Translations under genes and position numbers: made by a program | Shown here: in pieces, positions 16,353 to 56,002 of the stretch | How positions within the stretch are numbered: position 1 is the stretch's first letter | How the letters are laid out: each line of letters begins with the position of its first letter | The notes under the pieces: generated by a model | Databases searched by the model: none | Seen by the model: the letters and a program-made list of their open reading frames with translations, nothing else | What the model was told of the DNA's origin: nothing | NCBI GenBank assembly: GCA_023251755.1 | Contig: JAHEYF010000014.1 | Span: 1 to 64,000 of the forward strand | From: Bacteroidota bacterium | GTDB lineage: Bacteria; Bacteroidota; Bacteroidia; B-17B0; Aurantibacillaceae | DNA: 64,000 bases | Reading direction: 5' to 3'

Positions 16353-16420
16353 GTAGCAGGTATTTGGCAGCAGGAGAAGTACCAGGTACTTGTTACTATA
16401 TACCTGCTACTATCTGCTAC
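16353..16420. repeat. TGCTACC-word inverted repeat
   Basis: GTAGCAGGTA (16353-16362) pairs perfectly with TACCTGCTAC (16401-16410), and an inner palindrome AGTACC-A-GGTACT sits at 16378-16390. Further TGCTAC words follow on the right and run into the stop codon of the DUF1003 gene. The same word occurs at the 3' end of ccoNO (about 36845-36868). Confidence 0.65.
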
Positions 16421-17064
16421 TCTTTCGATTTTTTATTATGTTCAGAAACTTTAAGTAATAGCATATCTACTTTTTCGTGCAACTGCTGAATTTCAATTTC
16501 TGCTTTGAGGTTTATTTTGTAATCGTTCTCCGAGCGTTGCCTGTCTTTATCTTCCTTGCGGTTCTGGCTCATCATAATAACCGGAGCCTGCAAAGCTGCA
16601 ACACAGGAAAGGATAAGGTTAAGCAGGATGTAAGGATAAGGATCGAATATAGTATTGGTGACCGTGTTGTAGATCATCCAGATAACAATAAACACCATAA
16701 AAGAGAGGATGAACCTCCAGCTTCCCCCAAACGCGGCAATTTTGTCGGCCAGCAATTGAGACAAGGTAGTTTTTTCCTTGAGCTCATAAGGCGATTTACT
16801 GATGAATTCGTTTTTTTCAATGCTGTTTACGATTTCTTTTTCCGCATTGTCTAAGTTGGGATTGTCTTCGGCGAGCACCCCGGCGGCGTGTATGGCCCGA
16901 TATTTATTCAGTTCTTTTAAACTGATGTAATCGTCCTTGGTGAAATCGGGAAAATCTTTTTTTATGGTTTCGAATATCGACTCACGGATCACATCGGCGG
17001 GCATCGCTTCAGAGTGATGAATAGACTTATTGGATATTTTGCAGTGTACTTGTTTTGCTGACAT
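16417..17064 (-). CDS. DUF1003 membrane protein
   Basis: The 215-aa protein has two transmembrane helices (about 113-135 and 143-165) with the DUF1003 signature DPYPYILLNLILSCVAALQAPVIMM and SQNRKEDKDRQR (given as two parts). A soluble N-terminal region of about 100 residues precedes them and a coiled-coil tail follows. The family is widespread and of unknown function. Its stop TAG lies inside the adjoining TGCTAC word repeat. An FNR/CRP-like box and a near-consensus -7 element lie upstream, mirrored by those of the divergent ccoI. Confidence 0.82.
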   Translation of the reverse strand: MSAKQVHCKISNKSIHHSEAMPADVIRESIFETIKKDFPDFTKDDYISLKELNKYRAIHAAGVLAEDNPNLDNAEKEIVNSIEKNEFISKSPYELKEKTTLSQLLADKIAAFGGSWRFILSFMVFIVIWMIYNTVTNTIFDPYPYILLNLILSCVAALQAPVIMMSQNRKEDKDRQRSENDYKINLKAEIEIQQLHEKVDMLLLKVSEHNKKSKE

Positions 17065-17124: not shown

Positions 17125-17167
17125 CAAATGTCAGTTTTTTTAAACTATGAGCCTTGAGCAAGATCAT
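17125..17167 (-). promoter_or_regulatory. DUF1003 promoter with FNR/CRP-like box
   Basis: On the minus strand the box ATGATCTTGCTCAA (17167-17154; reads TTGA-N6-TCAT on the other strand) is centred 35.5 nt upstream of the last G of GACATTTG (17132-17125), a one-mismatch version of TAnnTTTG. The spacing matches three other promoters in the window. Transcription would start near 17121, giving a leader of about 57 nt. Confidence 0.5.
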
Positions 17168-17176
17168 TGGAAAAAC

Positions 17177-17219
17177 TGATAATTATCATGTGCCTGACTT
17201 TTATTCAAATCTAATTTTG
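17177..17219 (+). promoter_or_regulatory. ccoI promoter with FNR/CRP-like box
   Basis: TGATAATTATCA (17177-17188), a perfect 12-bp palindrome matching the FNR core TGAT-N4-ATCA, is centred 36.5 nt upstream of the last G of TAATTTTG (17212-17219), a perfect -7 element. The predicted start (about 17223) is only about 2 nt before the ATG, so the mRNA may be almost leaderless. Confidence 0.65.
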
Positions 17220-17224
17220 CAGGT

Positions 17225-30258: not shown

Positions 30259-30576
30259 TTACTTTTTACAGCAATTTTTATCGGCTTTTTTACACTCAGT
30301 TTTGCATTTTTCATCACATGTACCGGCGGCACATTTTTCTTTGCAATCCTTTTGTGTAGCAGCAGAGCAGCATGCGCTGGCCGAGGTACAGGCTTTACCC
30401 TGACAACCTTTTTTCTCGCAGTCTTTGCAGCAATCCTTATCCGTGCATTTATTTTTTTTGCACATGGCAATACATTCTTTCGAACAGCTTGCTTTGCAAC
30501 AGGCAGGCTTATCGTCGCCTATGTTTTTAAAGCTAAAATTTATGAGGCAGATCAATGCCAATACTATAGTTTTCAT
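30259..30576 (-). CDS. Cysteine-rich secreted protein, metallothionein-like
   Basis: The 105-aa product starts with a signal peptide-like segment (about 1-18). The remaining 85 or so residues contain 20 cysteines in CC, CxxC and CxxxC spacings with many lysines (for example CKKNKCTDKDCCKDC). This composition suggests soft-metal binding (copper, zinc or cadmium) outside the cytoplasm, or a disulfide-rich scaffold. I know no named family. The start ATG is unambiguous. It lies downstream of another Cys-rich gene and near the cbb3 genes, so copper is a plausible ligand, but that is inference. Confidence 0.7.
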   Translation of the reverse strand: MKTIVLALICLINFSFKNIGDDKPACCKASCSKECIAMCKKNKCTDKDCCKDCEKKGCQGKACTSASACCSAATQKDCKEKCAAGTCDEKCKTECKKADKNCCKK

Positions 30577-30653: not shown

Positions 30654-31013
30654 TTAACAAGCAGGCGGTTTAAAAAGAGTATTTAAAAATCCCTCCGACA
30701 ATTGTGAGGAGGTCCTGGTAATTTTATTACCGAGCGGGGTTTGAAATAAAGAAAACACTTGCTGACCGGGATTAATTTCTTCACCAATAATCACTGAGAT
30801 AACATATTGTGCATTTACAGGGAAACTGCAACAACAATCTCCCACTTTCGAGCACTTTTTATCCTTTGCTTCATCCTTTGTACAACAGGCCATTTTTGTT
30901 TCTTCCGAACAAGCTGATGTTGTATCAGGAAAAATACGGTCGGAGTAAAGAAACAACAAATTGTTGATTAAAAAGCAACAGCAGGTAACAAGTATAATAA
31001 GTGCATTTTTCAC
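30654..31013 (-). CDS. Small membrane-anchored Cys-rich protein
   Basis: The 119-aa product has one N-terminal hydrophobic helix containing CCC (about 5-24), then CSEETKMACCTKDEAKDKKC and a DCCC motif, a short beta-rich segment and a C-terminal PPAC. No named family recognised. The gap to the next gene (30577-30653) has three GTGAG/CTCAC elements in inverted order (30621-30650), which could be an operator. It sits between hemN and the metallothionein-like gene, all on the minus strand. Confidence 0.6.
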   Translation of the reverse strand: MKNALIILVTCCCFLINNLLFLYSDRIFPDTTSACSEETKMACCTKDEAKDKKCSKVGDCCCSFPVNAQYVISVIIGEEINPGQQVFSLFQTPLGNKITRTSSQLSEGFLNTLFKPPAC

Positions 31014-31115: not shown

Positions 31116-32468
31116 TTATACCGAGGAACTAAAGACCTGTTGCTGAGGGTTTGTTCGCCATAAACGCGCGTCAAAGGCCATACAGATGTTCCGTAAAAAA
31201 GCCCGGCCTTTGGTTGTTACCTTTAAATGATGTGCTTGCAACTCAATGAGTTTATCTTTTTCAAGTTCCTGTAAGCGGGGAATGGCCGCATATAGGGGCC
31301 CGCATTGTTCTTTTGTATTGGTCCAGAAAGTTTCAAATTTGCACATAAGGTTCAAAATGTGTTTTCGTATAATCAGATCTTCTTTGTCTAATACATGTCC
31401 GCGAAACAGGGGGAAATTCCCTTCTTCAACAGCTTTTCTGTATTCTTCCACCGTTTTTATATTTTGAGCAAAGGCATACCAGGTATCACTAATGGACGAA
31501 ACACCCAACCCGATCATTAATTGGGTATGCTTGTGGGTATAACCCATAAAATTGCGGTGAAGGCTCCCGTTTACAGCTGCTTTGTACAAAGAATCCGTTT
31601 TAAGTGCAAAATGATCCATGCCGATTTCAATAAATTTTGCCTCCTTCAATTGTTTCCTTCCCAATTCATACAAGGCCCTTTTTTCAATGTCAACCGGTAA
31701 ATCGGCCTCGCTAAATTTTCGTTGCCCGGGTTTTATCCAGGGTACATGGGCATAACTATAAAAGGCAATGCGGTCGGGTTTTAGCTGCCTCACATTGTTA
31801 ATGGTATTTACCATGCTCTTCGGGGTTTGCAGGGGCAGGCCATAAATCAAATCGAAGTTAACAGAGGTATACCCTGTTTCGCGGGCAAGCTCAACAATGT
31901 GCTGCACCTGCTCAAAGCTTTGTTTGCGGTTAATGATGTATTGCACCCTTGGGTCAAAATCCTGTATACCAAAACTTACCCGCCTGAATCCAAGATTATA
32001 TAATGTTTTCAGGTGCTGTTCCGTTGTATTGTCGGGATGGGCTTCAAAGCTGAACTCTGCATCCTCATTTATTGCTGAAACAGCCAATATACCTTTTATA
32101 AGAAGGGCCAGGTTTTCGGCGCTGAAAAAAGTAGGGGTACCGCCCCCAAGGTGAATTTCCTTGATGCTCGGTTTTTCTCCAAACAAGTCTGTATACAGGT
32201 TCCATTCTTTTAACAAGGATTGGATATAAGGGGCTTCTACTTTGTGGTTTACCGTAATGCGGGTGTTGCAACCACAATAAGTGCACAGGCTTTCGCAAAA
32301 AGGTAGGTGAATGTATAAACTGATCCCCTTACTTTTATTACTCTCCTTAAATGATTTTTGAACTAATTTTTTCCAGTCTTCCTGTGTAGGGGTTTTATCC
32401 CATAAAGGAACAGTGGGATAACTGGTGTACCGCGGGGCAGCGGTGTTGTATTTTGAAATTAGTTTCAT
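31116..32468 (-). CDS. hemN: Oxygen-independent coproporphyrinogen III oxidase
   Basis: The 450-aa radical SAM enzyme converts coproporphyrinogen III to protoporphyrinogen IX without oxygen in haem synthesis. The cluster motif CESLCTYCGC (Cx3Cx2C) and HLGGGTPTF are present, with a typical HemN C-terminal domain. I chose the start MKLISKYNTAAPRYTSYP because it matches the usual HemN beginning. The frame is open 25 codons further, overlapping the upstream gene by 32 nt. As last gene of the cbb3 set it would supply haem under low oxygen. Confidence 0.93.
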   Translation of the reverse strand: MKLISKYNTAAPRYTSYPTVPLWDKTPTQEDWKKLVQKSFKESNKSKGISLYIHLPFCESLCTYCGCNTRITVNHKVEAPYIQSLLKEWNLYTDLFGEKPSIKEIHLGGGTPTFFSAENLALLIKGILAVSAINEDAEFSFEAHPDNTTEQHLKTLYNLGFRRVSFGIQDFDPRVQYIINRKQSFEQVQHIVELARETGYTSVNFDLIYGLPLQTPKSMVNTINNVRQLKPDRIAFYSYAHVPWIKPGQRKFSEADLPVDIEKRALYELGRKQLKEAKFIEIGMDHFALKTDSLYKAAVNGSLHRNFMGYTHKHTQLMIGLGVSSISDTWYAFAQNIKTVEEYRKAVEEGNFPLFRGHVLDKEDLIIRKHILNLMCKFETFWTNTKEQCGPLYAAIPRLQELEKDKLIELQAHHLKVTTKGRAFLRNICMAFDARLWRTNPQQQVFSSSV

Positions 32469-32511
32469 TTGTAAATTATTGTTTAATTGAACAGCGACGG
32501 GCTCTTCAATT

Positions 32512-33222
32512 TCATTTTTTATGACAACAGGAGTGGGCTTCACATTGTGTTTTACTCATTTCAGGGCTGATGTATGGAATACCTAAATTCAGCCCTCTTA
32601 ATATTAATAACACACCCATTATTGATACAAAAACAGGGACTGTTTTACGTATTCTGTTTCGGAAAGAAAGTGAGATAAGGGTTCCACTCATGCTTAAGGC
32701 CAGCATGGCAGGCAAAGTTCCCAAACCAAAAAACAACATAAACAAAGCTCCCTGTAGCATACTCCCTGTAGCAATGGCTCCGGCAATTCCCATGTACACT
32801 AATCCACAAGGCAGCAAACCGTTTAGGGTCCCAATAAAAAATAGCGCGCGCAGTGTTTTTTGATGGAACAAATAAGTGAAAGAGGTTTTAAGCCTGGTGT
32901 TTAGTTTATACAAAGGTGCGGTAATTTTAAATTTAGTGAACACCCTCGTCGGGAGCAATACATACAATAACACCAGACTACCCAAAACAATAGATAATAA
33001 TTGTTGATAACCCCCAATTACAAAACCTTTGCCCAATGCACCAAACAATACTCCAAAACAAGCGTAGGTGGTTGCCCTGCCAAAGTTGTAAAGCAAGCTG
33101 CCTGTAATTTTTGAATAAGCAGATCTGTTGTTTAAAGGAAGCGCTAAGGCAATAGAGCCGCACATTCCAATACAATGGAAACTCCCTAAAAAACCAAGTG
33201 ATAATGCGGCTATATAGTTCAT
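32512..33222 (-). CDS. TauE/SafE (DsbD_2-type) membrane protein of the cbb3 cluster
   Basis: The 236-aa protein has six membrane helices with paired motifs GSFHCIGMCGSIALAL and NGLLPCGLVYM, the cysteine-proline pattern of the DsbD_2/SafE-like family. The C-terminus ends in CEAHSCCHKK, a possible metal-binding tail. In Bacteroidota this gene normally follows fixH in cbb3 clusters and is thought to act in copper or electron delivery for oxidase assembly. The start codon lies inside the first word of the adjoining inverted repeat. Exact role not established. Confidence 0.82.
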   Translation of the reverse strand: MNYIAALSLGFLGSFHCIGMCGSIALALPLNNRSAYSKITGSLLYNFGRATTYACFGVLFGALGKGFVIGGYQQLLSIVLGSLVLLYVLLPTRVFTKFKITAPLYKLNTRLKTSFTYLFHQKTLRALFFIGTLNGLLPCGLVYMGIAGAIATGSMLQGALFMLFFGLGTLPAMLALSMSGTLISLSFRNRIRKTVPVFVSIMGVLLILRGLNLGIPYISPEMSKTQCEAHSCCHKK

Positions 33223-33332
33223 TTGTTTAAAAGTTTATCCGTTTATATGTTCAGCCGTTTAATCGTTTATTCGTTAGTACCCGAACGCTTGAACTTCTGA
33301 ACGAATAAACTGTTAAACGCATGAACTATTGA
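33219..33332. repeat. Intergenic inverted repeat, GTTYATTCG family, copy 4
   Basis: Words GTTCATTTG, GTTTATCC, GTTTATATG, TTTAATCG and TTTATTCG on the left are answered by GAACGAATAAAC, TTAAACGC and ATGAAC on the right. Its core (33261-33286) is identical over 26 nt to copy 5. The fixH stop (TAG at 33326-33328) and the next gene's ATG both fall within it. Confidence 0.75.
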
Positions 33333-33769
33333 ATAAAAATCGTTTCCTCTTTGTAATATTCTTTCCCTCCGGAATGCCAGGATAATTGCATCTTGTATTC
33401 GCCGTGTTCAAATAAGGAAGAAATGATAAGCTGTTTGTTTTTTGCATCGGGTGCGAGTTGTACCTTTATATCCTTTGCCGAATCAGAAGGCCTGAAAAAA
33501 AGCACTTCGCCACCAAAACTATTGTTTACCATTGTTTCGGGAAAAAACAAAGAAATACTTTTACCTTCTACCTGGTATTGTATAGGTTGAGTTAAGGCAT
33601 TGGCATTGTTCTGCGCATTTATTTTATCCTGAAATTTTAACTCCTTTTCATAATAATCCGGACTTACAAGGTCCACTTTTTGATTCATGCTTTTAAATAC
33701 CAATACACCTATCAGCACTACAAAACCAATGTAAAGCACCGCTATTTTTATTCCCCAGCTGATATTCAT
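33326..33769 (-). CDS. fixH: FixH-family cbb3 assembly protein
   Basis: The 147-aa protein has one N-terminal membrane helix (about 5-25) with MNISWGIKIAVLYIGF, a YYEKELKFQDKI segment and a beta-sandwich periplasmic domain. This is the FixH/CcoH family, which works with the copper ATPase CcoI in maturing cbb3 oxidase. It lies between ccoG and the TauE/SafE gene and is flanked on both sides by nearly identical inverted repeats. Confidence 0.85.
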   Translation of the reverse strand: MNISWGIKIAVLYIGFVVLIGVLVFKSMNQKVDLVSPDYYEKELKFQDKINAQNNANALTQPIQYQVEGKSISLFFPETMVNNSFGGEVLFFRPSDSAKDIKVQLAPDAKNKQLIISSLFEHGEYKMQLSWHSGGKEYYKEETIFIQ

Positions 33770-33779
33770 TTTGTTTTAA

Positions 33780-33884
33780 AGTTTATATGTTTATTTGTTC
33801 ATCCGTTTAATGGTTCAATCGTTTATTCGTTAGTACCCGAACATTTAAACTTCTGAACGAATAAACTATTAAGCGATTGAACTT
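33780..33884. repeat. Intergenic inverted repeat, GTTYATTCG family, copy 5
   Basis: Built of GTTTATATG, TTTATTTG, GTTCATCCG, TTTAATGG and TTTATTCG words, then GAACGAATAAAC and GCGATTGAAC on the right. Positions 33817-33842 are identical to 33261-33286 of copy 4, and AACTTCTGAACGAATAAACT follows in both, indicating recent duplication or gene conversion. It lies between ccoG and fixH. Confidence 0.75.
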
Positions 33885-33885
33885 T

Positions 33886-35322
33886 TTAAGGAACGTACAC
33901 GACCGGGCTAAAGAAATTTGTTTTTACTGTTTTTATTTTTTTATCCCCGGAATAAATCCCGATGAGTAATTTTGTTTTGCGTTGTTTGATTTCTTTTTTA
34001 TCCAGTATAATAAAAAACTCTCCGGCTACTATTCCTTCTGGTTTTACATTCAGTTCTTTTCCAATTACTCTTATTTCACCATGCATTGATTCGAGCTTAA
34101 ATTGTACAGGGTAGTTTATCCGTGTTTTATTAATAAGCCGTATGGTGTATAAATTACTTATTCTTTTATCCGGCTGCTCCTGGTACATTTGCCCTGCTGC
34201 GCGCAACACAGTAGCATCAATGTCTGTACGGGTCGATAGCAACACTACTTCAACAACAATCAACAAAAAAAGAATTGCCGTATACCCTTTCATCCGGTTG
34301 GTGAACTGCATCTTCAACTTGTTTTTAATTCCGTTTTCCGAATCGTAACGGATCAAGCCTTTAGGCAGGTTCACTCGTTCCATCATGTTGTCGCAGGCAT
34401 CAATACAAGCCGTGCAATTGGTACATTCCAACTGGGTGCCGTTGCGTATATCAATACCTGTGGGGCAAACTTTCACACACTGAAAACAATCAATACAATC
34501 CCCTTTTTTATTTTCTTCCTTTTTAGTGAATTTATGCCTTGGTTCCCCCCGCACATAATCATACGCCACTACTATTGAATTTTTATCGAGCAATACACCC
34601 TGCATACGTCCATAAGGGCAAACAATTAAACACACCTGTTCGCGAAAACTGGAGTATATCCCGTAAAACACCGCTGTAAAAATAAGCATGGAAGTTAAGC
34701 CCCCAATATGCATAGATAAAGGTTCGCGCATGATGCTGAACAATTCATCCACGCCAATAATATAAGCCAGCAGAGTATTGGCAATGATAAAGGATACGAG
34801 AAAGAACAATAGGTGTTTGGTTACTTTTTTCCTGATTTTTTCGGGGGATGATTTTTGTTTTTGCAGGGCTTTCTGATAAGCCGCATCTCCTTCTACCCAG
34901 TATTCAATTTTACGGAAAATCAGTTCCATAAAAATTGTTTGTGGACAGGCCCAGCCGCAGAACACCCTGCCGTAAATTATTGTAAACAAGGCAATGAAAA
35001 TTATAAAGATGAGCATGCCCAGGCCAAAAATAAAAAAGTCCTGTGGCCAGAAAATCATGTTGAACAAAATAAATTTTCGCTCTACGATGTTGAAAAGAAA
35101 CAAAGGATCGCCATTTACTTTAATAAAAGGTAAGCCAAAAAAAACCACTAAATAAAGAACGCTTAATTTGCTTCGTAAGTTATATAGTCTGCCTTTTGGC
35201 TTTTGCGCGAATACCCAGGCCCGTTTCCCTTTTTTATCGATGGTTGCTATCGAGTCCCGGAACGATTCAGAATTTGCCGCATCATCTTCCTTTCCCAACT
35301 TTCCCTCATTCACACTGCTCAT
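33886..35322 (-). CDS. ccoG: Cytochrome cbb3 assembly ferredoxin-like protein CcoG
   Basis: The 478-aa membrane protein has about five helices, a polyferredoxin domain with CGWACPQT and two 4Fe-4S motifs (CIDCFQCVKVCP and CTNCTACIDACD), and a C-terminal immunoglobulin-like domain. This is CcoG/RdxA/FixG, shown in other bacteria to reduce copper for cbb3 assembly. Length and motifs are typical. It follows ccoP after 10 nt and lies within the minus-strand cco set. Confidence 0.93.
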   Translation of the reverse strand: MSSVNEGKLGKEDDAANSESFRDSIATIDKKGKRAWVFAQKPKGRLYNLRSKLSVLYLVVFFGLPFIKVNGDPLFLFNIVERKFILFNMIFWPQDFFIFGLGMLIFIIFIALFTIIYGRVFCGWACPQTIFMELIFRKIEYWVEGDAAYQKALQKQKSSPEKIRKKVTKHLLFFLVSFIIANTLLAYIIGVDELFSIMREPLSMHIGGLTSMLIFTAVFYGIYSSFREQVCLIVCPYGRMQGVLLDKNSIVVAYDYVRGEPRHKFTKKEENKKGDCIDCFQCVKVCPTGIDIRNGTQLECTNCTACIDACDNMMERVNLPKGLIRYDSENGIKNKLKMQFTNRMKGYTAILFLLIVVEVVLLSTRTDIDATVLRAAGQMYQEQPDKRISNLYTIRLINKTRINYPVQFKLESMHGEIRVIGKELNVKPEGIVAGEFFIILDKKEIKQRKTKLLIGIYSGDKKIKTVKTNFFSPVVYVP

Positions 35323-35332
35323 GGTTCCCTGT

Positions 35333-36535
35333 TTATTTTTTATCGCCTTGCAACAGGCTGTCTTTTTGCAGGCTACTGTTTAAGGTATCTGTTTTAGCAA
35401 TGCTTAAAGAGTCGCTGCTGCTTATTGTTTCAGTATACAAATCGCCCTGGGCCGCTTTGGGGTTAGGAGGATTGCTTCCTTTTAAACTCATTACGTAACT
35501 GGATAACTGGGCCATTTGAACCGGCGACAGGTCTTCTTTCCAGGCTTTCATTCCTTTATCGGGCCAGCCGTATTTTATACTTTTAAAAATGTCTGGAAGG
35601 CCGCCTTTGTGCAGCCAATAGCTATCAGTTAAATTCGGGCCTACCGTTCCCTCGCCCAATTTACCGTGGCAGGCAGCGCAGGTAGAAATAAAGATTTCTT
35701 TGGCCGCATTTAAGTCACTTGCATCAGTAAGTTGTTTTACATTGCTTTCATCCACATTGTTGGCTGCGTTTTTCATGTACTCTGCTTTTTGCAATTCAGC
35801 CGTTTTTAATTCTTTGTTGTATTCCGCCAATTGTAAATCTCCTGTTTCGCTTATGTGGTAATGCACCAAATAAATTACAGCCCATACAATAGTGAGGTAA
35901 AAACCAATTTTCCACCAGGGCGGCAGGTTGTTGTCCAATTCCTTTATTCCATCGTAGTTGTGATCCAATAGAATATCCGCTTCTTTTTCAATTTCAACCG
36001 AAGCATTGAGGCTGTCTATGATGGTTTTCTTTTTAACTTTTGGTTTGCTTTCTTCTTTTTTGGCTTGTAAAGCTGTATCGGTATACACCAGGGTTTTAAT
36101 GGTGTTAATTAAAATGAGCAATACACTAATTTCGCAGGCAATAATGCCCAGCATCAAATAAAAGGTGGTGTAGTCAATGCCGCTAATGTAGCGCGTAGGA
36201 ATGACGTTGGGGTTGGCTGCCTGCAGGCTATTCCCAAGTAATAAGAACAAAACAACAGCAGCAGTTGCTTTACCTGCTTCTCTTTCTTTTCTGTTTTTTT
36301 CTTCGTAAAACCGCGATACGTTTTTAGTTACATTGGCTATGGCTGCAATAAAAAACAGCAATAAAACAATAATAATAAGCAGGGTCAGAAACAAAGCATT
36401 TGTAAAATAAGAAGGAGCGGAACTATTCCCTGAAGTGGTTTGAGCCTGTGCATTTATAATGCCTGTAAACAAAACAAATAGTAGTATCCCTGCTTGCTTT
36501 AGTTTTTTGTTGTTTTGAATAATCTGGTTCATCAT
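35333..36535 (-). CDS. ccoP: cbb3 oxidase subunit CcoP, single haem
   Basis: The 400-aa product (start MMNQIIQ) has a signal-like N-terminal helix, three further membrane helices (about 45-68, 120-148 and 208-226), a charged cytoplasmic linker, and one cytochrome c domain with haem site CAACH at 286-290 and a probable Met ligand in KGMKAW. Proteobacterial CcoP has two haems; one haem with extra N-terminal helices is the Bacteroidota form. The tail after residue 365 is serine-rich. An ATG 48 nt upstream is also in frame. Confidence 0.88.
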   Translation of the reverse strand: MMNQIIQNNKKLKQAGILLFVLFTGIINAQAQTTSGNSSAPSYFTNALFLTLLIIIVLLLFFIAAIANVTKNVSRFYEEKNRKEREAGKATAAVVLFLLLGNSLQAANPNVIPTRYISGIDYTTFYLMLGIIACEISVLLILINTIKTLVYTDTALQAKKEESKPKVKKKTIIDSLNASVEIEKEADILLDHNYDGIKELDNNLPPWWKIGFYLTIVWAVIYLVHYHISETGDLQLAEYNKELKTAELQKAEYMKNAANNVDESNVKQLTDASDLNAAKEIFISTCAACHGKLGEGTVGPNLTDSYWLHKGGLPDIFKSIKYGWPDKGMKAWKEDLSPVQMAQLSSYVMSLKGSNPPNPKAAQGDLYTETISSSDSLSIAKTDTLNSSLQKDSLLQGDKK

Positions 36536-36569
36536 TCTTGTTTTTCTTTTAATTACATCTTGTTTATAA

Positions 36570-36657
36570 ATTCTAAATTCCAATCTCTAAATTCTAAAGC
36601 AGGCCGTAGTTTGTTGACCTTGACTTTAGAATTTGAAAAATTAGTGCTTGGAATTTT
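36570..36657. repeat. ATTCTAAA-word inverted repeat between ccoQ and ccoP
   Basis: AATTCTAAAG (36590-36599) pairs with CTTTAGAATT (36624-36633). Further words CTAAATTCC and AATTTGAAAAATT and TTGGAATTTT flank it. The right end overlaps the last codons and stop of ccoQ (ENSKH), so the repeat word is translated at the ccoQ C-terminus. Confidence 0.6.
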
Positions 36658-36848: not shown

Positions 36849-38975
36849 CTACTTGCTACCTGCTACCGCTTTCTCCGCTTTAATATCCGTCCCCATCCGT
36901 TGCAGGTAGGCAATAAGCGCTACAATTTCACGGTCGGGCAGGGTTTCAATTCCGTCTTGTTTCAGGTGGGAAGCAATTGCATCCGCTTGTTTTTTCAGGT
37001 CGTCGTTGGCTTTTGTTCCGTAGCCTTCGGGATAAGGAACCCCCAGTGTTATCATGGCTTCTATTTTTGCCTGTGTTGATCCCATATCTATTTGATCATC
37101 CAACAGCCAGGGGTAAGCCGGCATAATTGATTTATCGCTCATGGAGGTAGGATCGAGCATGTGGTTGTAATGCCAGGAGTCGGGGTACTTACCACCGATC
37201 CTTGCCAGATCAGGACCTGTACGTTTTGATCCCCATTGAAAAGGATGGTCGTATACAAATTCACCAGCCTTCGAATACTCACCGTAACGGGCTGTTTCAG
37301 AGCGGAAAGGACGGATCATTTGAGAGTGGCAGGTATAACAGCCTTCTCTTATATAAATATCCCTTCCCTGTAATTCAAGCGGAGTATAAGGTTTAACACT
37401 GGCGATGGTGGGAATGTTTGACTTAACCAAAAAAGTTGGAATGAACTCTACTGCCCCGCCGATTAAAATAACAATTAAACTTGCAATAAGCATTTGCACG
37501 GGTTTGCGTTCAATCCAGCGGTGCCAGTGTTCATTGCTGTATTTGGTGTAGGTCTGAAGCGCAGGTGCACTGGCTTCTTCATCGGGAACAAACACACCGG
37601 CTTTGGCTGTTTTAATTAAATTGTAAGTCATCAATACCGCACCCAGCAGATAAAGGGTTCCGCCCAATGAACGCAGTGCATAAAAAGGAATGAGCTTGGT
37701 GACCGTTTCAAGGAACTGGTATTGCAATTGCCCTTCGGCTGTAAATTGTTTCCACATGGAGCTTTGCACAAAACCCGCCCAGTACATAGGCACTGCATAA
37801 AACAATATACCGAGCGTACCCAACCAAAAATGCTGATTGGCCATTTTAGTTGAATACAATTTAGTGCTGAACATGCGCGGTATTAACCAGTACAGCATAC
37901 CGAAAGTTAAAAACCCGTTCCAGCCTAGGGCACCAACGTGTACGTGCGCAATGGTCCAGTCGGTAAAGTGGCTGATGGCGTTTACATTTTTTAATGAAAG
38001 CATAGGCCCTTCAAAAGTGGCCATCCCATAAGCGGTAATGGCCACCACCATAAATTTAAGCACGGCGTCTTCGCGCACTTTGTCCCATGCGCCGCGCAGG
38101 GTAAGCAAACCATTGATCATACCTCCCCACGAAGGAGCAATTAACATAATTGAAAACACCACACCTAATGATTGAGCCCAGTCGGGAAGCGAGGTGTATA
38201 ATAAATGGTGAGGGCCCGCCCAGATGTATAAAAAAATTAAAGCCCAAAAGTGGATGATGGATAAACGGTAAGAATATACAGGACGATTGGCCGCCTTTGG
38301 AACAAAATAATACATTAAACCCAGGTAGGGCGTGGTTAAAAAGAAAGCCACTGCGTTGTGCCCGTACCACCATTGAACCAGGGCATCCTGTACACCGGCG
38401 TACCAGGAATAACTTTTCCATAATGATACAGGAATTTCAATGGAGTTGACAATATGCAGTACTGCAACGGTAACAAAGGTGGCGATGTAAAACCAGATGG
38501 CTACATACAGGTGTTGCTCCCTCCGTTTCAAGATGGTGCCAAACATATTCCAGCCAAACACTACCCAAATTAGCGTAATTAAAATGTCTATCGGCCACTC
38601 CAATTCAGCGTATTCTTTTCCGGTGGTATAGCCCAACAGCAAGGTGATGGCTGCCAGTACTATAATTGATTGCCATCCCCAAAAATGCAGTTTGCTTAAT
38701 TTATCGCTGAACATGCGTGTTTTACACAGGCGTTGCAGGGAATAATAAACACCCATAAAAATACCATTGCCTACAAATGCAAAAATAATGGCGTTGGTGT
38801 GTACCGGGCGAACACGGCCAAAAGTAGTAGGGGCATAACCTAAATTAAGCGCCGGAAAAACCAATTGCAGGGCAATAAATAAACCAGCCAGCATCCCTAC
38901 TAAACCCCACAGCATTGTTGCGTAGGCAAACCATTTCACAATTTTGTTGTCGTAATAAAATTTTTGCACTTCCAT
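36849..38975 (-). CDS. ccoNO: cbb3 oxidase fused subunits CcoN-CcoO
   Basis: The 708-aa protein fuses the catalytic haem-copper subunit CcoN (about 1-480, twelve membrane helices; histidine ligands in PVHTNAI, WWYGHNAVAFFL, AGPHHLLYT and HVHVGALGWNGF) to the mono-haem subunit CcoO (about 515-708, haem site CYTCH in REGCYTCHSQMIRPF). This fusion is known from Bacteroidota. I chose the start MEVQKFYYD at 38975; the frame is open a further 25 codons but would overlap ccoS. The C-terminal VAGSK lies in a TGCTACC word repeat. Confidence 0.93.
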   Translation of the reverse strand: MEVQKFYYDNKIVKWFAYATMLWGLVGMLAGLFIALQLVFPALNLGYAPTTFGRVRPVHTNAIIFAFVGNGIFMGVYYSLQRLCKTRMFSDKLSKLHFWGWQSIIVLAAITLLLGYTTGKEYAELEWPIDILITLIWVVFGWNMFGTILKRREQHLYVAIWFYIATFVTVAVLHIVNSIEIPVSLWKSYSWYAGVQDALVQWWYGHNAVAFFLTTPYLGLMYYFVPKAANRPVYSYRLSIIHFWALIFLYIWAGPHHLLYTSLPDWAQSLGVVFSIMLIAPSWGGMINGLLTLRGAWDKVREDAVLKFMVVAITAYGMATFEGPMLSLKNVNAISHFTDWTIAHVHVGALGWNGFLTFGMLYWLIPRMFSTKLYSTKMANQHFWLGTLGILFYAVPMYWAGFVQSSMWKQFTAEGQLQYQFLETVTKLIPFYALRSLGGTLYLLGAVLMTYNLIKTAKAGVFVPDEEASAPALQTYTKYSNEHWHRWIERKPVQMLIASLIVILIGGAVEFIPTFLVKSNIPTIASVKPYTPLELQGRDIYIREGCYTCHSQMIRPFRSETARYGEYSKAGEFVYDHPFQWGSKRTGPDLARIGGKYPDSWHYNHMLDPTSMSDKSIMPAYPWLLDDQIDMGSTQAKIEAMITLGVPYPEGYGTKANDDLKKQADAIASHLKQDGIETLPDREIVALIAYLQRMGTDIKAEKAVAGSK

Positions 38976-38985
38976 AATTTTGTTT

Positions 38986-39141
38986 TTATTGTTTGTCTTT
39001 TTCTTCCTCTTCAAATAAAATCCGTACCGATGGTGTATAATCGTCATCAAACTGGCCGTTCTTTACAGAATGAATAAAGGCAATGAGAAACCCTACAGCC
39101 ACCAGCAAACTAAATCCTATCAAAATAAACAGTACACTCAT
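38986..39141 (-). CDS. ccoS: cbb3 maturation protein CcoS
   Basis: A 51-aa ORF (start ATG at 39141) reads MSVLFILIGFSLLVAVGFL then IAFIHSVKNGQFDDDYTPS and an acidic tail. One membrane helix followed by KxGQFDDxxTPxxRIL is the signature of CcoS/FixS, needed to insert haem and copper cofactors into cbb3 oxidase. It is the first gene of the cco set, 10 nt before ccoNO. Confidence 0.9.
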   Translation of the reverse strand: MSVLFILIGFSLLVAVGFLIAFIHSVKNGQFDDDYTPSVRILFEEEEKDKQ

Positions 39142-39161
39142 AAGGGGGTATTAACTGAAAA

Positions 39162-39205
39162 CAAAAGTAGAAGAGGAACTGTTTGTGGCAGCTGACTGAA
39201 ATCAA
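39162..39205 (-). promoter_or_regulatory. cco operon promoter with FNR/CRP-like box
   Basis: On the minus strand the box TTGATTTCAGTCA (39205-39193; TTGA-N6-TCA) is centred 37 nt upstream of the last G of TACTTTTG (39169-39162), a perfect TAnnTTTG. The predicted start near 39158 leaves a leader of about 17 nt before ccoS. The geometry is that of class II activation by an FNR-like regulator. Confidence 0.65.
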
Positions 39206-39213
39206 TGTGAAAT

Positions 39214-39257
39214 ATGATTTATGTCAATATTTTATGTACCTATGTAAAATATATTTG
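39214..39257 (+). promoter_or_regulatory. uspA promoter with FNR/CRP-like box
   Basis: ATGATTTATGTCAA (39214-39227; reads TTGA-N6-TCAT on the minus strand) is centred 36 nt upstream of the last G of TATATTTG (39250-39257), a perfect -7 element. The predicted start near 39261 leaves a leader of about 19 nt. The cco box lies only 22 nt away, so both promoters may be served jointly. Confidence 0.65.
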
Positions 39258-39279
39258 TTCAGCATAAAAACTCATTATT

Positions 39280-40176
39280 ATGATAAATTTAAACACGAGT
39301 AAAATAGTAGTTCCGGTAGATTTTTCGGAAACAGCCAGCCGTGCTATTAAACACGGAGCTTTTATTGCCCAGTTTTTAAAAGGCGAAATTGTGCTGGCCC
39401 ATGTTATAAAAACATCGGTTTACTTAGATATGCTTTTGCCCGTTCTACAGATGGAAGACCTTTCGGGGATAACAAAAATTGTACAGGAAAGGTTGGAAGA
39501 AATTGCAGACGGGGTTCGTAAAGAATATGGAATAAAAGTAAGTACAATTGTATCGACCGGTAAAGTGCCGGCTGAACTTGTAAACATTGCCAAAGATTAC
39601 CAGGCCGGGATGATCGTGATGGGTACGCAGGGTTATTCGGCGGTGGAAGAATTTTTAATGGGCAGTAATGCTTACCGGGTTATTTCAAAATCCCCTGTTC
39701 CTGTTATGACCGTAAGGAAGGAAACAGACAAGTTTGGGTATAAAAACATTGTGCTGCCGGTAGATTCTTCAGAACATTCCAGGCAAAAGGTGGACACCAC
39801 CATTAATTTTGCTGAAAAATTTGCCGCCAAACTGCACATCATTGGTATACTGGGCAACGACGAAGGAAGCTATGAGCCTAACCTACGGACAATTGTACAC
39901 CAGGTTGAAGAGCTGGCAAAAGCAAAAGGGGTGAGTGTTGAAAGCAAAGTGTGTTTTGCAAAAAACCGCGCCCACGAAACCTTAAAGTATGCGAAAGCTG
40001 TTCAGGCAGACTTAATTGTAACGATGACAGACCAAAATGCGGAACTATCAAGTTTACTGCTCGGCACCTATGCACATCAGTTGATTAATTTGGCCAAAGC
40101 CCCGGTACTCAGTTTCCCTCCTGAAAGGCACAATGAAAATATTTCCCTGACCTTTGCAGGCCTCGAATTGAATTAA
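39280..40176 (+). CDS. Universal stress protein, tandem UspA domains
   Basis: The 298-aa cytoplasmic protein has two UspA domains (about 5-147 and 153-280). The first has the ATP-binding motif MGTQGYSAVEEFLMGSNAY (G-2x-G-9x-G-S); the second is degenerate. Such tandem proteins are often induced by low oxygen or starvation. It is divergent from the cco set and has its own FNR-like box. It ends 21 nt before the convergent MlaF gene, with only a short repeat between. Confidence 0.9.
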   Translation: MINLNTSKIVVPVDFSETASRAIKHGAFIAQFLKGEIVLAHVIKTSVYLDMLLPVLQMEDLSGITKIVQERLEEIADGVRKEYGIKVSTIVSTGKVPAELVNIAKDYQAGMIVMGTQGYSAVEEFLMGSNAYRVISKSPVPVMTVRKETDKFGYKNIVLPVDSSEHSRQKVDTTINFAEKFAAKLHIIGILGNDEGSYEPNLRTIVHQVEELAKAKGVSVESKVCFAKNRAHETLKYAKAVQADLIVTMTDQNAELSSLLLGTYAHQLINLAKAPVLSFPPERHNENISLTFAGLELN

Positions 40177-41787: not shown

Positions 41788-41886
41788 TTATACGCTTTCG
41801 CATATAATTTATGTTTATGTTAATATTTTATATGTGATAACATATAATTTAGTATTTTTGTATAAAATAAATGCGATCGCATATAA
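41788..41886 (+). promoter_or_regulatory. hipBST promoter with three regularly spaced operators
   Basis: Three similar 20-bp inverted repeats lie 40 and 39 nt apart: TTATACGC-N4-GCATATAA (41788-41807, one mismatch), TTATATGT-N4-ACATATAA (41828-41847, perfect) and ATAAATGC-N4-GCATATAA (41867-41886, two mismatches, containing the perfect ATGCGATCGCAT). A perfect -7 element TATTTTTG (41853-41860) lies between the second and third. The third ends on the first base of the hipB ATG. Likely cooperative autorepression by HipB. Confidence 0.7.
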
Positions 41887-42116
41887 TGAAGACTTTAGCC
41901 GAATTTGTAAAAAATAAAAGGAAAGAAGCCCATCTTACACAGGAACAATTTGCTGAACGGGCTGGTGTGGCACTTACCGTTATACGGAAAATTGAACAGG
42001 GAAAAGAAAATGTAAAATTAGAAAAGGTAAATCAGGTACTTAAAATGTTTGGGCATTTATTAGTGCCTGTAAGCAGCAAAGAACTATCATTAAAAAAAGA
42101 AAAGCCTAAAACATGA
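41886..42116 (+). CDS. hipB: HipB-like Xre antitoxin of a HipBST system
   Basis: This 76-aa protein is almost entirely an Xre helix-turn-helix (core TQEQFAERAGVALTVIRKIEQG) with a short lysine-rich tail. It is the DNA-binding component of a three-gene toxin-antitoxin operon. I chose ATG 41886 because the in-frame ATG at 41871 lies inside the third operator. The stop TGA overlaps the hipS start (ATGA). Confidence 0.82.
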   Translation: MKTLAEFVKNKRKEAHLTQEQFAERAGVALTVIRKIEQGKENVKLEKVNQVLKMFGHLLVPVSSKELSLKKEKPKT

Positions 42117-42445
42117 GGAGAGCAGAAATATATTATAAAGATGTAGTTGCTGGTATTCTTATTGAAACGAACGAAGGTCAATACACTTTTCAGTATGATA
42201 AGGAATACGTTGCGAAATATCCGGATCAATTTATTACTTTTTCTATGCCGGTTACTGAGCATGCTTATAGTGAAAATAGGTTGTTCCCGTTTTTTGAAGG
42301 CCTTATTCCTGAGGGATGGCTGTTGGACATCGCAGCAAAAAACTGGAAAATAAATTCGAATGACCGAATGGGATTGCTTTTGGCTTGTTGTCAAAATTGT
42401 ATCGGAGCAGTAAGTGTTCAACCAATAGCAGAAGAAGATGAATAA
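42113..42445 (+). CDS. hipS: HipS-like protein (HipA N-terminal subdomain)
   Basis: The 110-aa protein matches the N-terminal subdomain 1 of HipA (IYYKDVVAGILIET, FEGLIPEGWLLDIAAKNW, GAVSVQP) as a free-standing gene. In the HipBST system of enteropathogenic E. coli, HipS of this kind is the antitoxin that blocks the kinase HipT. Here it overlaps hipB by 4 nt and hipT by 8 nt. No frameshift joins it to hipT; both are intact with tight overlaps, so the split is genuine. Function inferred from the known system. Confidence 0.8.
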   Translation: MRRAEIYYKDVVAGILIETNEGQYTFQYDKEYVAKYPDQFITFSMPVTEHAYSENRLFPFFEGLIPEGWLLDIAAKNWKINSNDRMGLLLACCQNCIGAVSVQPIAEEDE

Positions 42446-43388
42446 GAAATGTTTATACTGTTATAAAGAACTGGGCAAACAAATTGAAAGTGATTTTCAC
42501 CAGCATTGTAGCTTAGCGTTTTTCGGAACAAAAACAGCGCCTTTGTTATCTTATTCATTCAACCAGATGGCTGAGCTGGCTAAGGATGTTGTGGAGCGCA
42601 GTATTGCTGTACCAGGTGTGCAGGCTAAACTGTCCTTATCATTGGTTAAAGATACTATAAGAGATGGGAATAAAGACCGTTTAACAGTTGTTGGAGCTTT
42701 GGACGGAAATTATATTTTTAAACCGCCATCAGAATATTATCCTGAAATGCCGCAGAATGAACATGTAACTATGCGGATGGCTGAGGCTTTTGGAATACAT
42801 ACAGTGAAGTCAAGTTTGATACGTTTGCAATCTGGAGAATTATCTTATATAACCAAACGAATTGACCGTAAAGAAAACGGAGAAAAAATTCACATGCTTG
42901 ATATGTTTCAGGTACTGGACGCCGTTGATAAATACAAAAGCTCAATGGAACGAGTGGGTAAGGCTATTGGCCAGCATTCGGATAATACCTTGCTGGATCA
43001 GTTGTACTTTTTTGAGTTAAGTGTATTTAGCTTCCTTACAGGTAATAACGATATGCACTTAAAAAATTTCTCCATGATTCATTCAGCTAATCAATGGGGT
43101 TTGGCTCCCGCATACGATTTACTAAATGTGAGCATTGTAAATCCTAACGATACAGAGGAATTGGCTTTAACCCTTGAAGGGAAAAAGAAAAAAATAAAAC
43201 GGGAGCATTTTGAACACCTAGGAACTTTATTGGATCTAAACACCAAACAAATAGAAGGCGTGTTTAAACGGATGATAAAAAACAAACCTATTGCGATTGA
43301 ATGGATTGACAAATCATTTTTATCAAATGACTTCAAGGAAAAGTATAAAGCTCTTTTGGAAAAAAAGTATTTAGGTTTATTAAGATAG
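42438..43388 (+). CDS. hipT: HipT-like kinase toxin
   Basis: The 316-aa protein is the kinase part of HipA without the N-terminal subdomain. A cysteine/histidine motif at the start (C5xxC8 ... H21, C24) suggests a small zinc site. The phosphorylatable loop is RSIAVPGVQAKLSL (S55), the catalytic loop GNNDMHLKN (D205, H207, N210) and the DFG-like PAYDLLN (D227). All kinase residues are present, so it should be active. HipT of E. coli O127 phosphorylates tryptophanyl-tRNA synthetase; the target here is unknown. Translation is coupled to hipS. Confidence 0.85.
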   Translation: MNKKCLYCYKELGKQIESDFHQHCSLAFFGTKTAPLLSYSFNQMAELAKDVVERSIAVPGVQAKLSLSLVKDTIRDGNKDRLTVVGALDGNYIFKPPSEYYPEMPQNEHVTMRMAEAFGIHTVKSSLIRLQSGELSYITKRIDRKENGEKIHMLDMFQVLDAVDKYKSSMERVGKAIGQHSDNTLLDQLYFFELSVFSFLTGNNDMHLKNFSMIHSANQWGLAPAYDLLNVSIVNPNDTEELALTLEGKKKKIKREHFEHLGTLLDLNTKQIEGVFKRMIKNKPIAIEWIDKSFLSNDFKEKYKALLEKKYLGLLR

Positions 43389-43564: not shown

Positions 43565-43634
43565 TTTATCCGCTCATTCGTTTCATGGTTTACTCGTTCA
43601 GGCCGAACGAAAGAACGAATAAACAAAAGAACGG
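43564..43634. repeat. Intergenic inverted repeat, GTTYATTCG family, copy 6
   Basis: GTTTATCC, GCTCATTCG, TTTCATGG and TTTACTCGTTC on the left, then GAACGAAAGAACGAATAAAC on the right with a loop of about 5 nt. It lies between two plus-strand genes (small lipoprotein and feoA). Confidence 0.7.
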
Positions 43635-43644
43635 GTTAAGGAAA

Positions 43645-43692
43645 ATACCCTTTTTAAGGTATGGTCAAATTAGCCCGTTTCATCTACATTTG
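43645..43692 (+). promoter_or_regulatory. feoA promoter with inverted-repeat operator candidate
   Basis: A perfect -7 element TACATTTG (43685-43692) lies 18 nt before the feoA ATG. Upstream, ATACC-N8-GGTAT (43645-43662) is a perfect inverted repeat centred 38.5 nt from the last G of the -7 element. An iron-responsive regulator of Fur or DtxR type is the obvious candidate, but the motif does not match a consensus I can name. Confidence 0.45.
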
Positions 43693-43710
43693 CAATACAC
43701 ACCGTACTTT

Positions 43711-43929
43711 ATGAAGACCTTAGCCGAACTGAAAATAGGAGAATCTGCTGTAATTGCAAGCTTTACCGACGATACACTTTCGTTAAAACTGATTGAAATG
43801 GGTTGCTTACCGGGTGAAATGGTGAGGTTGCAACACGTTGCCCCACTTGGTTGCCCTTTTGCCATTGAAGTTTCGGGTTATTTGCTGAGTATGCGTAAAT
43901 CAGAAGCCGCCACTGTATTAGTGAATTAA
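43711..43929 (+). CDS. feoA: FeoA-domain protein
   Basis: The 72-aa protein is a single FeoA (SH3-like) domain: LAELKIGESAVIASF, LKLIEMGCLPGEMVRL, PFAIEVSGYLLSMRKSEA. FeoA works with the ferrous-iron transporter FeoB. I chose MKTLAEL at 43711; the frame is open 42 codons upstream, but that stretch is repeat and promoter sequence. It ends 5 nt before feoB. Confidence 0.9.
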   Translation: MKTLAELKIGESAVIASFTDDTLSLKLIEMGCLPGEMVRLQHVAPLGCPFAIEVSGYLLSMRKSEAATVLVN

Positions 43930-43934
43930 AAACC

Positions 43935-46046
43935 GTGCCCGATACTTTATTAAAGGAAAAACTCCAATCAGCCAACCCCTTAAAAATAGCACTTGTTGGA
44001 AATCCCAACAGTGGAAAATCAACTTTATTTAACGCATTAACAGGCCTTAACCAAAGAACCGGAAATTTCCCGGGGGTTACTGTCGATAAAAAAACCGGTT
44101 ATTGCAAAGCCGAAGACCCGGAAACGAAACGTATTCATACCTTTGAGGTCATTGACCTGCCCGGCACCTACAGCCTGTACCCCAAATCCATTGATGAGCA
44201 GGTAACTTTTGATGTGCTGTTTGATACCGAAAGGCCCGAATACCCCGATATTATTGTTGCTGTAATCGATTCCTCCAATATTAAAAGGAATTTATTATTA
44301 GCGACACAATTGCTCGACCTGGGCCGCCCCATTGTGTTTGCCTTTAATATGATGGATGTGGCGGAAAAAAAGGGGATTACCGTTGAAATTGAAAAGGCAA
44401 AAAAGCTGTTCGGTGTGCCTGTAATTACTATTGATTCGCGGCACCGGGAAGGGATGGGGGACTTAAAAAATAATTTTTTTGAGGCCTGTTCAGCGCCTGC
44501 GCCCTTTATTACTTTAAGTGATCACCTCGATAAAAATTACATTGATTCTGTTCACCGCCATCACCAGCAAAGCTCGGAGTACGCCTCTTTATTAAAACAA
44601 GCCAATGGTTCGGAAAAAGCCACGGTAACTATTTTCAACATCAAGCCCTTCCGTAAATTTGAAAGCAGGGATACTTTGTTGCGTTTCGAAAAGATAAAAA
44701 AAATTATTTCAGAAACCCTGTCTTACCACGAAAACAGGCAGGATGTAAAATTGAGCGATAAAATAGACGATTACACCACCCACCCGGTATGGGGCTTTAT
44801 CATATTTCTGACCATTTTGTTTTTTATTTTTCAAAGCATTTTTTACCTCGCTGAATTTCCGATGGGATGGATTGAAAGTGGATTTGTGTGGCTGGGGCAA
44901 ACAGCTTCGGCAGCCTTACCACAAGGCCCCTTAAACAGTTTATTGGTAGATGGTATTATTGCCGGCCTAAGCGGGGTGGCCGTGTTTATACCTCAGATAG
45001 CCTTGTTGTTTGGTTTTATTGCGGTGCTTGAAGACAGCGGGTACATGGCCCGTGTAAGCTTTATTATGGACAAACTGATGCGCAAAGTAGGGCTGAACGG
45101 GCGTTCTGTTATTCCGCTTATCAGCGGCGTAGCCTGTGCGGTTCCGGCTATTATGAGTACACGCACCATCAGCAATGTGAAGGAACGCATCATCACCATT
45201 ATGATTACTCCCCTGATGAGTTGTTCGGCACGTTTACCAGTATATACTTTATTGATTTCTTTAATGGTTCCAGACGATGGAAGCAATCGTTTTTTCAGTA
45301 CCAAAGGTTTTATGCTGATGGCTCTTTACCTGATTGGGTTTATTGCAGCCATTGCAGCTGCCCTTGTCTTTAAATTTATTTTAAAAGCAAAAGAACGTAG
45401 CTATTTTATTATGGAACTTCCCATATACAGGCTGCCCCAGCCCAAAACGATTTTTATAACCATGTTCGAAAAGGTAAAAGTGTTTTTGCTGGATGCAGGA
45501 AAAATAATTGTAGCCATTTCGGTTGTCCTCTGGTTTTTGTCTACCCATGCACCGGGGAATAGTTTTGAAAACATAGAAAAAAAATACAGCGAAAGCACAT
45601 TGAGCAAACAGGAAACGGAAACAAAAATGAATGCCGAAAAATTAGAAGCATCGTATGCAGGTTTGTTGGGGAAAAAAATCGAACCATTTATTCGCCCGCT
45701 TGGCTTCGACTGGAAAATAGGCATCTCATTGGTCACCTCCTTTGCTGCACGCGAAGTGTTTGTAGGTACCATGGCCACCATTTACAGTGCCGGCGATAAA
45801 GAAAACACCAGCTCCATTCGTGAAAAAATGTCTGCGGATAAAAATCCGGTAACGGGATTAAAAACTTATTCGGTGGCGGTGTGCTGGAGTCTGCTTATTT
45901 TTTATGCCTTTGCTATGCAATGTATGAGTACGCTTGCAGTGGTGTACCGCGAAACAAAAAGCTGGAAATGGCCTGTTATACAATTGTTGTACATGAGCGC
46001 GCTGGCTTATTTGTCGAGCTTTGTAGTGTACCAGATGCTGAGCTAA
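43935..46046 (+). CDS. feoB: Ferrous iron transporter FeoB
   Basis: The 703-aa protein has an N-terminal G domain (GNPNSGKST, G3 DLPGTYSL, NMMD) and a membrane core with about nine helices, including two Gate motifs (SGVACAVPAIMSTR and AAREVFVGTMATIY). It imports Fe2+ across the inner membrane. The start is GTG at 43935, 5 nt after feoA. The loop near 545-575 (KKYSESTLSKQETETK) is long. The C-terminus meets the convergent T9SS gene head to head with no bases between the stop codons. Confidence 0.95.
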   Translation: MPDTLLKEKLQSANPLKIALVGNPNSGKSTLFNALTGLNQRTGNFPGVTVDKKTGYCKAEDPETKRIHTFEVIDLPGTYSLYPKSIDEQVTFDVLFDTERPEYPDIIVAVIDSSNIKRNLLLATQLLDLGRPIVFAFNMMDVAEKKGITVEIEKAKKLFGVPVITIDSRHREGMGDLKNNFFEACSAPAPFITLSDHLDKNYIDSVHRHHQQSSEYASLLKQANGSEKATVTIFNIKPFRKFESRDTLLRFEKIKKIISETLSYHENRQDVKLSDKIDDYTTHPVWGFIIFLTILFFIFQSIFYLAEFPMGWIESGFVWLGQTASAALPQGPLNSLLVDGIIAGLSGVAVFIPQIALLFGFIAVLEDSGYMARVSFIMDKLMRKVGLNGRSVIPLISGVACAVPAIMSTRTISNVKERIITIMITPLMSCSARLPVYTLLISLMVPDDGSNRFFSTKGFMLMALYLIGFIAAIAAALVFKFILKAKERSYFIMELPIYRLPQPKTIFITMFEKVKVFLLDAGKIIVAISVVLWFLSTHAPGNSFENIEKKYSESTLSKQETETKMNAEKLEASYAGLLGKKIEPFIRPLGFDWKIGISLVTSFAAREVFVGTMATIYSAGDKENTSSIREKMSADKNPVTGLKTYSVAVCWSLLIFYAFAMQCMSTLAVVYRETKSWKWPVIQLLYMSALAYLSSFVVYQMLS

Positions 46047-55730: not shown

Positions 55731-56002
55731 GGAGGCCAACGCACCCTCACCCCTAACCCCTCTCCGGCAGGAGAGGGGAATTCCTCCGTAGGGTAAATGC
55801 GGAAAGCGAGAAAATTAACTATCTATGTTATGCGAAGTAGGCTTGTGAAATGCAATACTGGGAAGGAATAACCTCAGGGCGCTGAATGTGCAATACGGGA
55901 GGTAGATGATCTACTTATTGTATAAAATGGTGGAGCAAACCACACACCCTCTCCCGCGGGAGAGGGCCGGGGTGAGGGTGCGATGCCCGTGCGTTCACCT
56001 CC
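55731..56002. repeat. Nested palindromic element of 272 bp
   Basis: Outer arms GGAGGCCAACGCAC (55731-55744) and GTGCGTTCACCTCC (55989-56002) match with two mismatches. Inside them GCACCCTCACCCC (55741-55753) pairs perfectly with GGGGTGAGGGTGC (55969-55981). Each end also carries its own hairpin: CCCCTCTCC-N4-GGAGAGGGG (55757-55778) and the perfect 20-bp palindrome at 55947-55966. The interior (about 165 nt) has no ORF. Composition is much more GC-rich at the ends than the surroundings. MITE-like in form; no clear target duplication. Confidence 0.65.

Follow-up and report, generated by a model that had tools for sequence, protein, structure and literature searches.

A paired CRP/FNR-type operator recurs across Bacteroidia and is probably read by a receiver–CRP fusion protein

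Two divergent promoter regions share a double box

The window analysed here is a stretch of 64,000 nucleotides from a Bacteroidota bacterium of the family Aurantibacillaceae (contig JAHEYF010000014.1), and it carries a cbb3 oxidase operon on its minus strand. The first gene of this operon, ccoS (38986–39141, minus strand), was defined from its open reading frame and from homologues in relatives; it encodes a FixS-like protein of 51 residues, and its homologues occupy the same place in 29 relatives with 49–75% identity. A ccoNO fusion encoding cbb3 oxidase subunits follows (36849–38975, minus strand; the open reading frame was listed from 39050 and we set the start at an internal ATG), and the operon probably continues through ccoP, ccoG (FixG), FixH, a DsbD_2-type membrane protein and a radical SAM enzyme (31116–36583, minus strand), the last of which we infer to be HemN-like. 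Just downstream of the operon lie two small Cys-rich proteins (30259–30576 and 30654–31013, both minus strand), neither of which has a Pfam family. On the other side of ccoS, across the intergenic region 39142–39279, uspA (39280–40176, plus strand) encodes a two-domain universal stress protein (Pfam Usp), and a FeoA–FeoB ferrous iron transport pair (43585–46046, plus strand) is found not far from this region.

Between ccoS and uspA there are two TGA-N6-TCA palindromes, box A (TGACTGAAATCA, 39193–39204) and box B (TGATTTATGTCA, 39215–39226), with a centre spacing of exactly 22 bp. They are flanked by two perfect, outward-facing TAnnTTTG −7 elements, one for ccoS (TACTTTTG, 39162–39169, minus strand, with a 23-base gap to box A) and one for uspA (TATATTTG, 39250–39257, plus strand, with a 23-base gap to box B). 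An earlier note on this DNA had described both boxes, their 22-nt spacing and the perfect −7 element at each promoter, all of which we recovered.

The same double box, again 22 bp apart, lies between the genes for a DUF1003 protein (16417–17064, minus strand) and for ccoI, a P-type ATPase with metal-binding domains (17225–19645, plus strand), with box 1 on the DUF1003 side (17155–17166) and box 2 on the ccoI side (17177–17188). The ccoI promoter has a perfect −7 element (TAATTTTG, 17212–17219, plus strand) with a 23-base gap to box 2, whereas the DUF1003 side has only the imperfect GACATTTG (17125–17132, minus strand) with a 22-base gap, or 32 bp centre to centre. At ccoS, uspA and ccoI, box and −7 element are 33 bp apart, measured between their centres; the layout that had been ascribed to four promoters is thus exact at these three and not at DUF1003. 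The predicted transcription start of ccoI falls at or next to its ATG at 17225 (17212–17227, plus strand), which suggests that its mRNA is leaderless or nearly so.

In 200 resamplings of the window under a dinucleotide model, 22-bp box pairs had a mean of 0 compared to the two observed, and the box-N23-TAnnTTTG layout had a mean of 0.02 and a maximum of 1 compared to three observed. The 64-kb window holds no exact pair beyond those at ccoS/uspA and ccoI/DUF1003, and one weak pair when two mismatches are allowed.

The conserved unit is a pair of boxes at a fixed spacing

The earlier note assigned one box to each promoter. Since ccoI/DUF1003 also carries two boxes 22 bp apart, the conserved unit is instead the pair, and the element has a wider scope than had been assumed, being a double operator that recurs across Bacteroidia. 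There are 11 exact pairs in this genome compared to none for a reversed control pattern, and the spacings of its boxes concentrate at 22 bp (11 cases) and 23 bp (three), with zero to two at each other spacing. Across 120 genomes of the class we found 515 exact pairs against eight control matches, and at least one exact pair in 96 of the 120. When a box is combined with a −7 element at gaps of 21–25 bases, this genome yields 17 matches (11 and 6 on the two strands) compared to three for the reversed pattern (2 and 1), and the gap is exactly 23 in nine of the 17.

The same spacing stands out in an independent set of 80 loci, fetched solely because they encode a relative of the response regulator–CRP protein described below (RR-CRP): 95 pairs are at 22 bp, five at 23 bp and zero to four at any other spacing. 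A perfect −7 element lies at a gap of 23 on 48 of 200 sides in this set and on zero to four at any other gap. The shared promoter geometry proposed in the earlier note is supported. Boxes without a partner peak at gaps of 23 and 45, which are the near and far slots of the same layout. Of 30 cco loci, the window's own among them, 26 carry a pair ahead of ccoS, mostly with the −7 element at 23. Reversed-pattern controls and resampling together rule out chance or base composition as the source of the motif, and the peak in pair spacing rules out a single box per promoter as its unit.

Aligning 140 pair sides gave the consensus (A/C)TGAY-N4-RTCA(T/G), with TAnnTTTG at one position and no conservation of a −33 element. 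The earlier note read the half-site as TTGA, a reading that the alignment does not sustain: its additional T falls outside the consensus, being present at 8% in the logo and at 6–23% in all subsets. These values, together with the lack of a detected Fe–S FNR in this genome, also rule out a strict FNR box (TTGAT-N4-ATCAA). The description of the boxes as FNR-like is supported in that they are genuine operators of the CRP/FNR family and is not supported in the strict sense, as the consensus differs and no N-terminal Fe–S cysteine cluster occurs in the eight CRP-family genes found in this genome (93% complete). Nor do the boxes match a cAMP–CRP operator, with TGTGA half-sites and an Arg before the Glu of the recognition helix, as the flanking G is at about 10% and the RR-CRP helix reads TESLIR.

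Class II sites of CRP-type activators are classically centred at −41.5. Mapped transcription starts in Flavobacterium psychrophilum place TAnnTTTG at −12 to −5 (PMC9723704); if the same placement holds in this organism, the 33-bp centre distance corresponds to a position of −41.5 for the near box and of −63.5 for its partner. Box A would thus be the near box for ccoS and the far one for uspA, and box B the reverse. With the start position borrowed in this way, the target promoters have what defines a class II operator, a dyad of TGA half-sites centred near −41.5.

Genes beside the pairs

Besides ccoS/uspA and ccoI/DUF1003, the pairs of this genome precede genes for a PAS kinase, for a BON, a DnaJ-like and a small Cys-rich protein, and for two YHS-domain proteins, one of which is divergent from a uroporphyrinogen-decarboxylase-like gene. 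In two further cases the gene at the pair is followed by another, a DoxX gene by a Usp gene and the gene of an ArsR-type regulator by that of an ATP-cone protein. Several of these identities were read from sequence instead of by Pfam. Pfam assignments for 97 proteins flanking pairs include 11 Usp, nine PAS kinases and eight DoxX, along with BON, Hsp20, AhpC/TSA, FixS, P-type ATPase, BLUF, YHS and other families. The cbb3- and oxygen-linked gene set that the earlier note had drawn from the window is supported. Some pair genes have no obvious link to oxygen, among them lipoproteins and a homogentisate-dioxygenase-like protein. In relatives, pairs are often clustered in islands, and in two relatives (loci L224 and L228) genes for BLUF blue-light sensors adjoin pairs, a hint that light might also act on these islands. 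Among culturable strains, Chitinophaga filiformis DSM 527 (L083) has a pair ahead of the kinase gene and Chitinophaga rupis DSM 21039 (L068) one ahead of a ccoI-like ATPase gene.

A receiver–CRP protein is the likely reader

The window encodes a protein, RR-CRP (11516–12574, minus strand), in which Pfam places a receiver domain, a cNMP-binding fold and a Crp-type helix-turn-helix (HTH_Crp_2), and whose orthologues and conserved residues make it our proposed reader of the boxes. Next to it lies the gene of a PAS histidine kinase (12631–13839, minus strand), its proposed partner, and a related PAS kinase adjoins RR-CRP in 69 of the 80 loci. The phospho-acceptor D52 and K104 are invariant in 81 of 81 RR-CRP sequences, and the protein thus combines the conserved Asp and Lys of a two-component response regulator with an adjacent kinase. 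The only cysteine conserved across these 81 sequences is one beside D52. Residues E317, I320 and R321 of the recognition helix are likewise invariant in all 81, and position 316 is mostly Thr. In CRP and FNR, the GA of TGA is contacted by a Glu and an Arg, and the outer base by a further residue, an Arg in CRP (outer G) and a Ser in FNR (outer T); judging by its sequence, RR-CRP has neither of these last two residues, which would fit the loose flank of the operator.

Among the 120 genomes, those with RR-CRP have a mean of 5.75 pairs compared to 0.41 in those without any match, and RR-CRP genomes differ from all genomes lacking RR-CRP with p = 6e-12 (U-test, counting genomes as independent and ignoring shared ancestry). 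RR-CRP genes lie inside pair islands in at least nine genomes. That pair number follows the presence of the regulator, and that its genes sit within the islands, upholds the proposal that the RR-CRP of the window is the likely reader. Pairs are missing from the 10 kb around several RR-CRP loci in Dyadobacter and Larkinella, and altogether from four genomes that encode RR-CRP. A pair precedes the kinase–RR-CRP operon in 20 of 70 loci, which suggests that this operon is autoregulated in relatives; in the window itself we rejected autoregulation, having found no pair upstream of the kinase gene with up to two mismatches allowed.

Among solved structures in the PDB, the PAS domain of the kinase is nearest to FixL and DosP. 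The heme-ligating (proximal) His of FixL aligns in it, the distal Arg fails to align, and an indel lies near the His in some orthologues; a heme-based oxygen sensor is possible from this alignment.

Proposed mechanism and alternatives

We propose that the 22-bp pair is a tandem class II/class I operator of a PAS-kinase/receiver-CRP system that controls microaerobic and stress genes, a reading to which we give a probability of roughly three in four and in which we infer the binding, the control by phosphorylation, the activation and the oxygen signal. The activator here would most likely be RR-CRP, phosphorylated by the neighbouring PAS kinase and binding as one dimer per palindrome. The dimer on the near box, at −41.5, would at each target promoter make a class II contact that replaces the missing −33 element, and the dimer on the far box, two helical turns away at about −63.5, would help cooperatively or through a class I contact. 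The symmetry of the pair would let it drive both divergent promoters, with each box probably serving as the class II site for one and the distal site for the opposite one; ccoS-NO-P-G-H would in this way share a single pair with uspA, and ccoI would share another, probably with DUF1003. Such a regulon would unite high-affinity respiration with stress survival and probably be on at low oxygen. In F. psychrophilum, cbb3 genes are induced on oxygen limitation (PMC9723704), and this observation, together with the set of genes beside pairs, would make low oxygen the likeliest signal.

Alternatively, the boxes could serve an FNR-type protein with an Fe–S cluster, as they seem to do in some related families, and RR-CRP could be a bystander. 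Four genomes with pairs and no RR-CRP (G074, G076, G099 and G110) have FNR-type proteins that bear cysteines near the N-terminus and whose recognition helix (GTATET.IRLLSE) is nearly the same as that of RR-CRP; a pair lies just beyond each of these genes, and the pairs of these genomes precede ccoS, ccoNO, HemN-like and Usp genes. With regulator classes assigned from match coordinates and inspected sequences, genomes with only the FNR type have a mean of 2.2 pairs compared to 0.35 in those with neither regulator, so that pair number follows either an RR-CRP or an Fe–S FNR relative. However, the same operators are more numerous in genomes with RR-CRP only (mean 5.3; 8.2 with both), and in this genome, which is 93% complete, eight CRP-family genes were found, all of them lacking an N-terminal cysteine cluster. 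The nearest relative, a 236-residue frame on contig C49 (L003), is of the FNR type, has no N-terminal cysteines and carries a changed helix, TARETLVR; it lies about 5 kb from a pair at a uroporphyrinogen-decarboxylase-like gene. We thus regard an Fe–S FNR as an unlikely reader in this organism.

Contig C14 (L210) of the same genome encodes a second PAS kinase and receiver–CRP protein (RR-CRP2), with two box pairs nearby, a paralogous system with possible crosstalk, and both RR-CRP2 and the cysteine-less FNR relative of C49 could share the boxes. That RR-CRP2, or crosstalk between both RR-CRPs, accounts for the main reader at the ccoS/uspA site seems improbable to us: RR-CRP2 also occurs in the pair islands of G061 and G067, and its recognition helix (PESVSR instead of TESLIR) has an FNR-like Ser, but boxes in its islands show no preference for the flanking T (10%), and it is RR-CRP1 that occurs close to cco genes in many loci. 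Repressors, in turn, can use palindromes that overlap promoter regions, yet the boxes stand at the distance of a class II activator with single-base precision, at promoters without a conserved −33 element, which makes a repressor or nucleoid-protein site unrelated to activation very improbable. The tandem operator of RR-CRP accordingly remains our preferred reading.

For the class as a whole, we lean, if only slightly, towards a regulon for microaerobic respiration and stress survival that is widespread in Bacteroidia and has one strict operator (dyads 22 bp apart and a −7 element 23 bases downstream). Its regulator would come in two designs that differ little in the recognition helix, an Fe–S FNR in some families and, in others such as this one, a receiver–CRP fusion under phosphorelay control; the sensor would have been swapped and the operator code kept.

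Relation to known systems

The element works somewhat like the FixLJ–FixK and DosR systems and is a member of neither. With class II promoters of CRP/FNR (and their upstream class I sites) it shares TGA-N6-TCA dyads, a near site at about −41.5 and a second two helical turns upstream, whereas here the −7 element is the TAnnTTTG of Bacteroidota, a fixed 22-bp pair is the unit, and in the regulator a receiver domain takes the place of the cAMP or Fe–S input. The FNR, ANR and FixK microaerobic regulons of Proteobacteria likewise target the cbb3 oxidase, its P-type ATPase, HemN-like enzymes and universal stress proteins; unlike in these, the operator is flanked by A/C instead of T, no Fe–S regulator was found in the genome, and control is probably by a kinase phosphorelay. 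As in FixL–FixJ–FixK, cco (fix) genes would be controlled through a PAS kinase, whose PAS is here closest to those of FixL and DosP, together with a receiver and a DNA-binding protein of the CRP type, but here the receiver and CRP form one fusion protein, merging the FixJ and FixK steps; heme binding by the PAS is a possibility.

The DosR/DevR hypoxia regulon of Mycobacterium, also under an autoregulated two-component system, is rich in usp and hsp20 genes, as is the set described here. DevR uses cooperative paired boxes of which the near one overlaps the −35 region (PMC3029386), similar to the arrangement proposed here; DevR is, however, a NarL-type regulator with unrelated boxes, in contrast to the HTH_Crp_2 of RR-CRP. 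The NmpRSTU oxygen utilization regulon of Myxococcus is similar in the two-component control of oxygen-use genes and differs in its NtrC-like regulators, which belong to another DNA-binding family (PMC11841059).

We know of no well-defined oxygen or redox regulon in aerobic Bacteroidota. A literature search, with subscription papers largely outside it, found neither such a regulon nor any account of this operator or a receiver–CRP regulon in Bacteroidota, and no functional study of the architecture in which a receiver is fused to CRP. The element points to a large, conserved and apparently undescribed regulon. A single operator grammar makes the members of this regulon predictable in any such genome, gives a testable role to the unknown genes DUF1003, DoxX-like and DUF6629, and provides a clear prediction for the receiver–CRP architecture; the exchange of sensors over kept operators, if true, would be a natural case of such a regulon.

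Other features of the window

Three overlapping genes at 41871–43388 (plus strand) encode an HTH_3 protein, a HipA N-terminal domain alone (110 residues) and a HipA C-terminal kinase domain (316 residues), a split HipA in the gene order of a HipBST-type toxin–antitoxin system. In the intergenic region 55745–55970, copies of a repeat resembling CTCACCCCTAACCCCTCTCC lie in inverted orientation, a common type of dispersed repeat in Bacteroidota.
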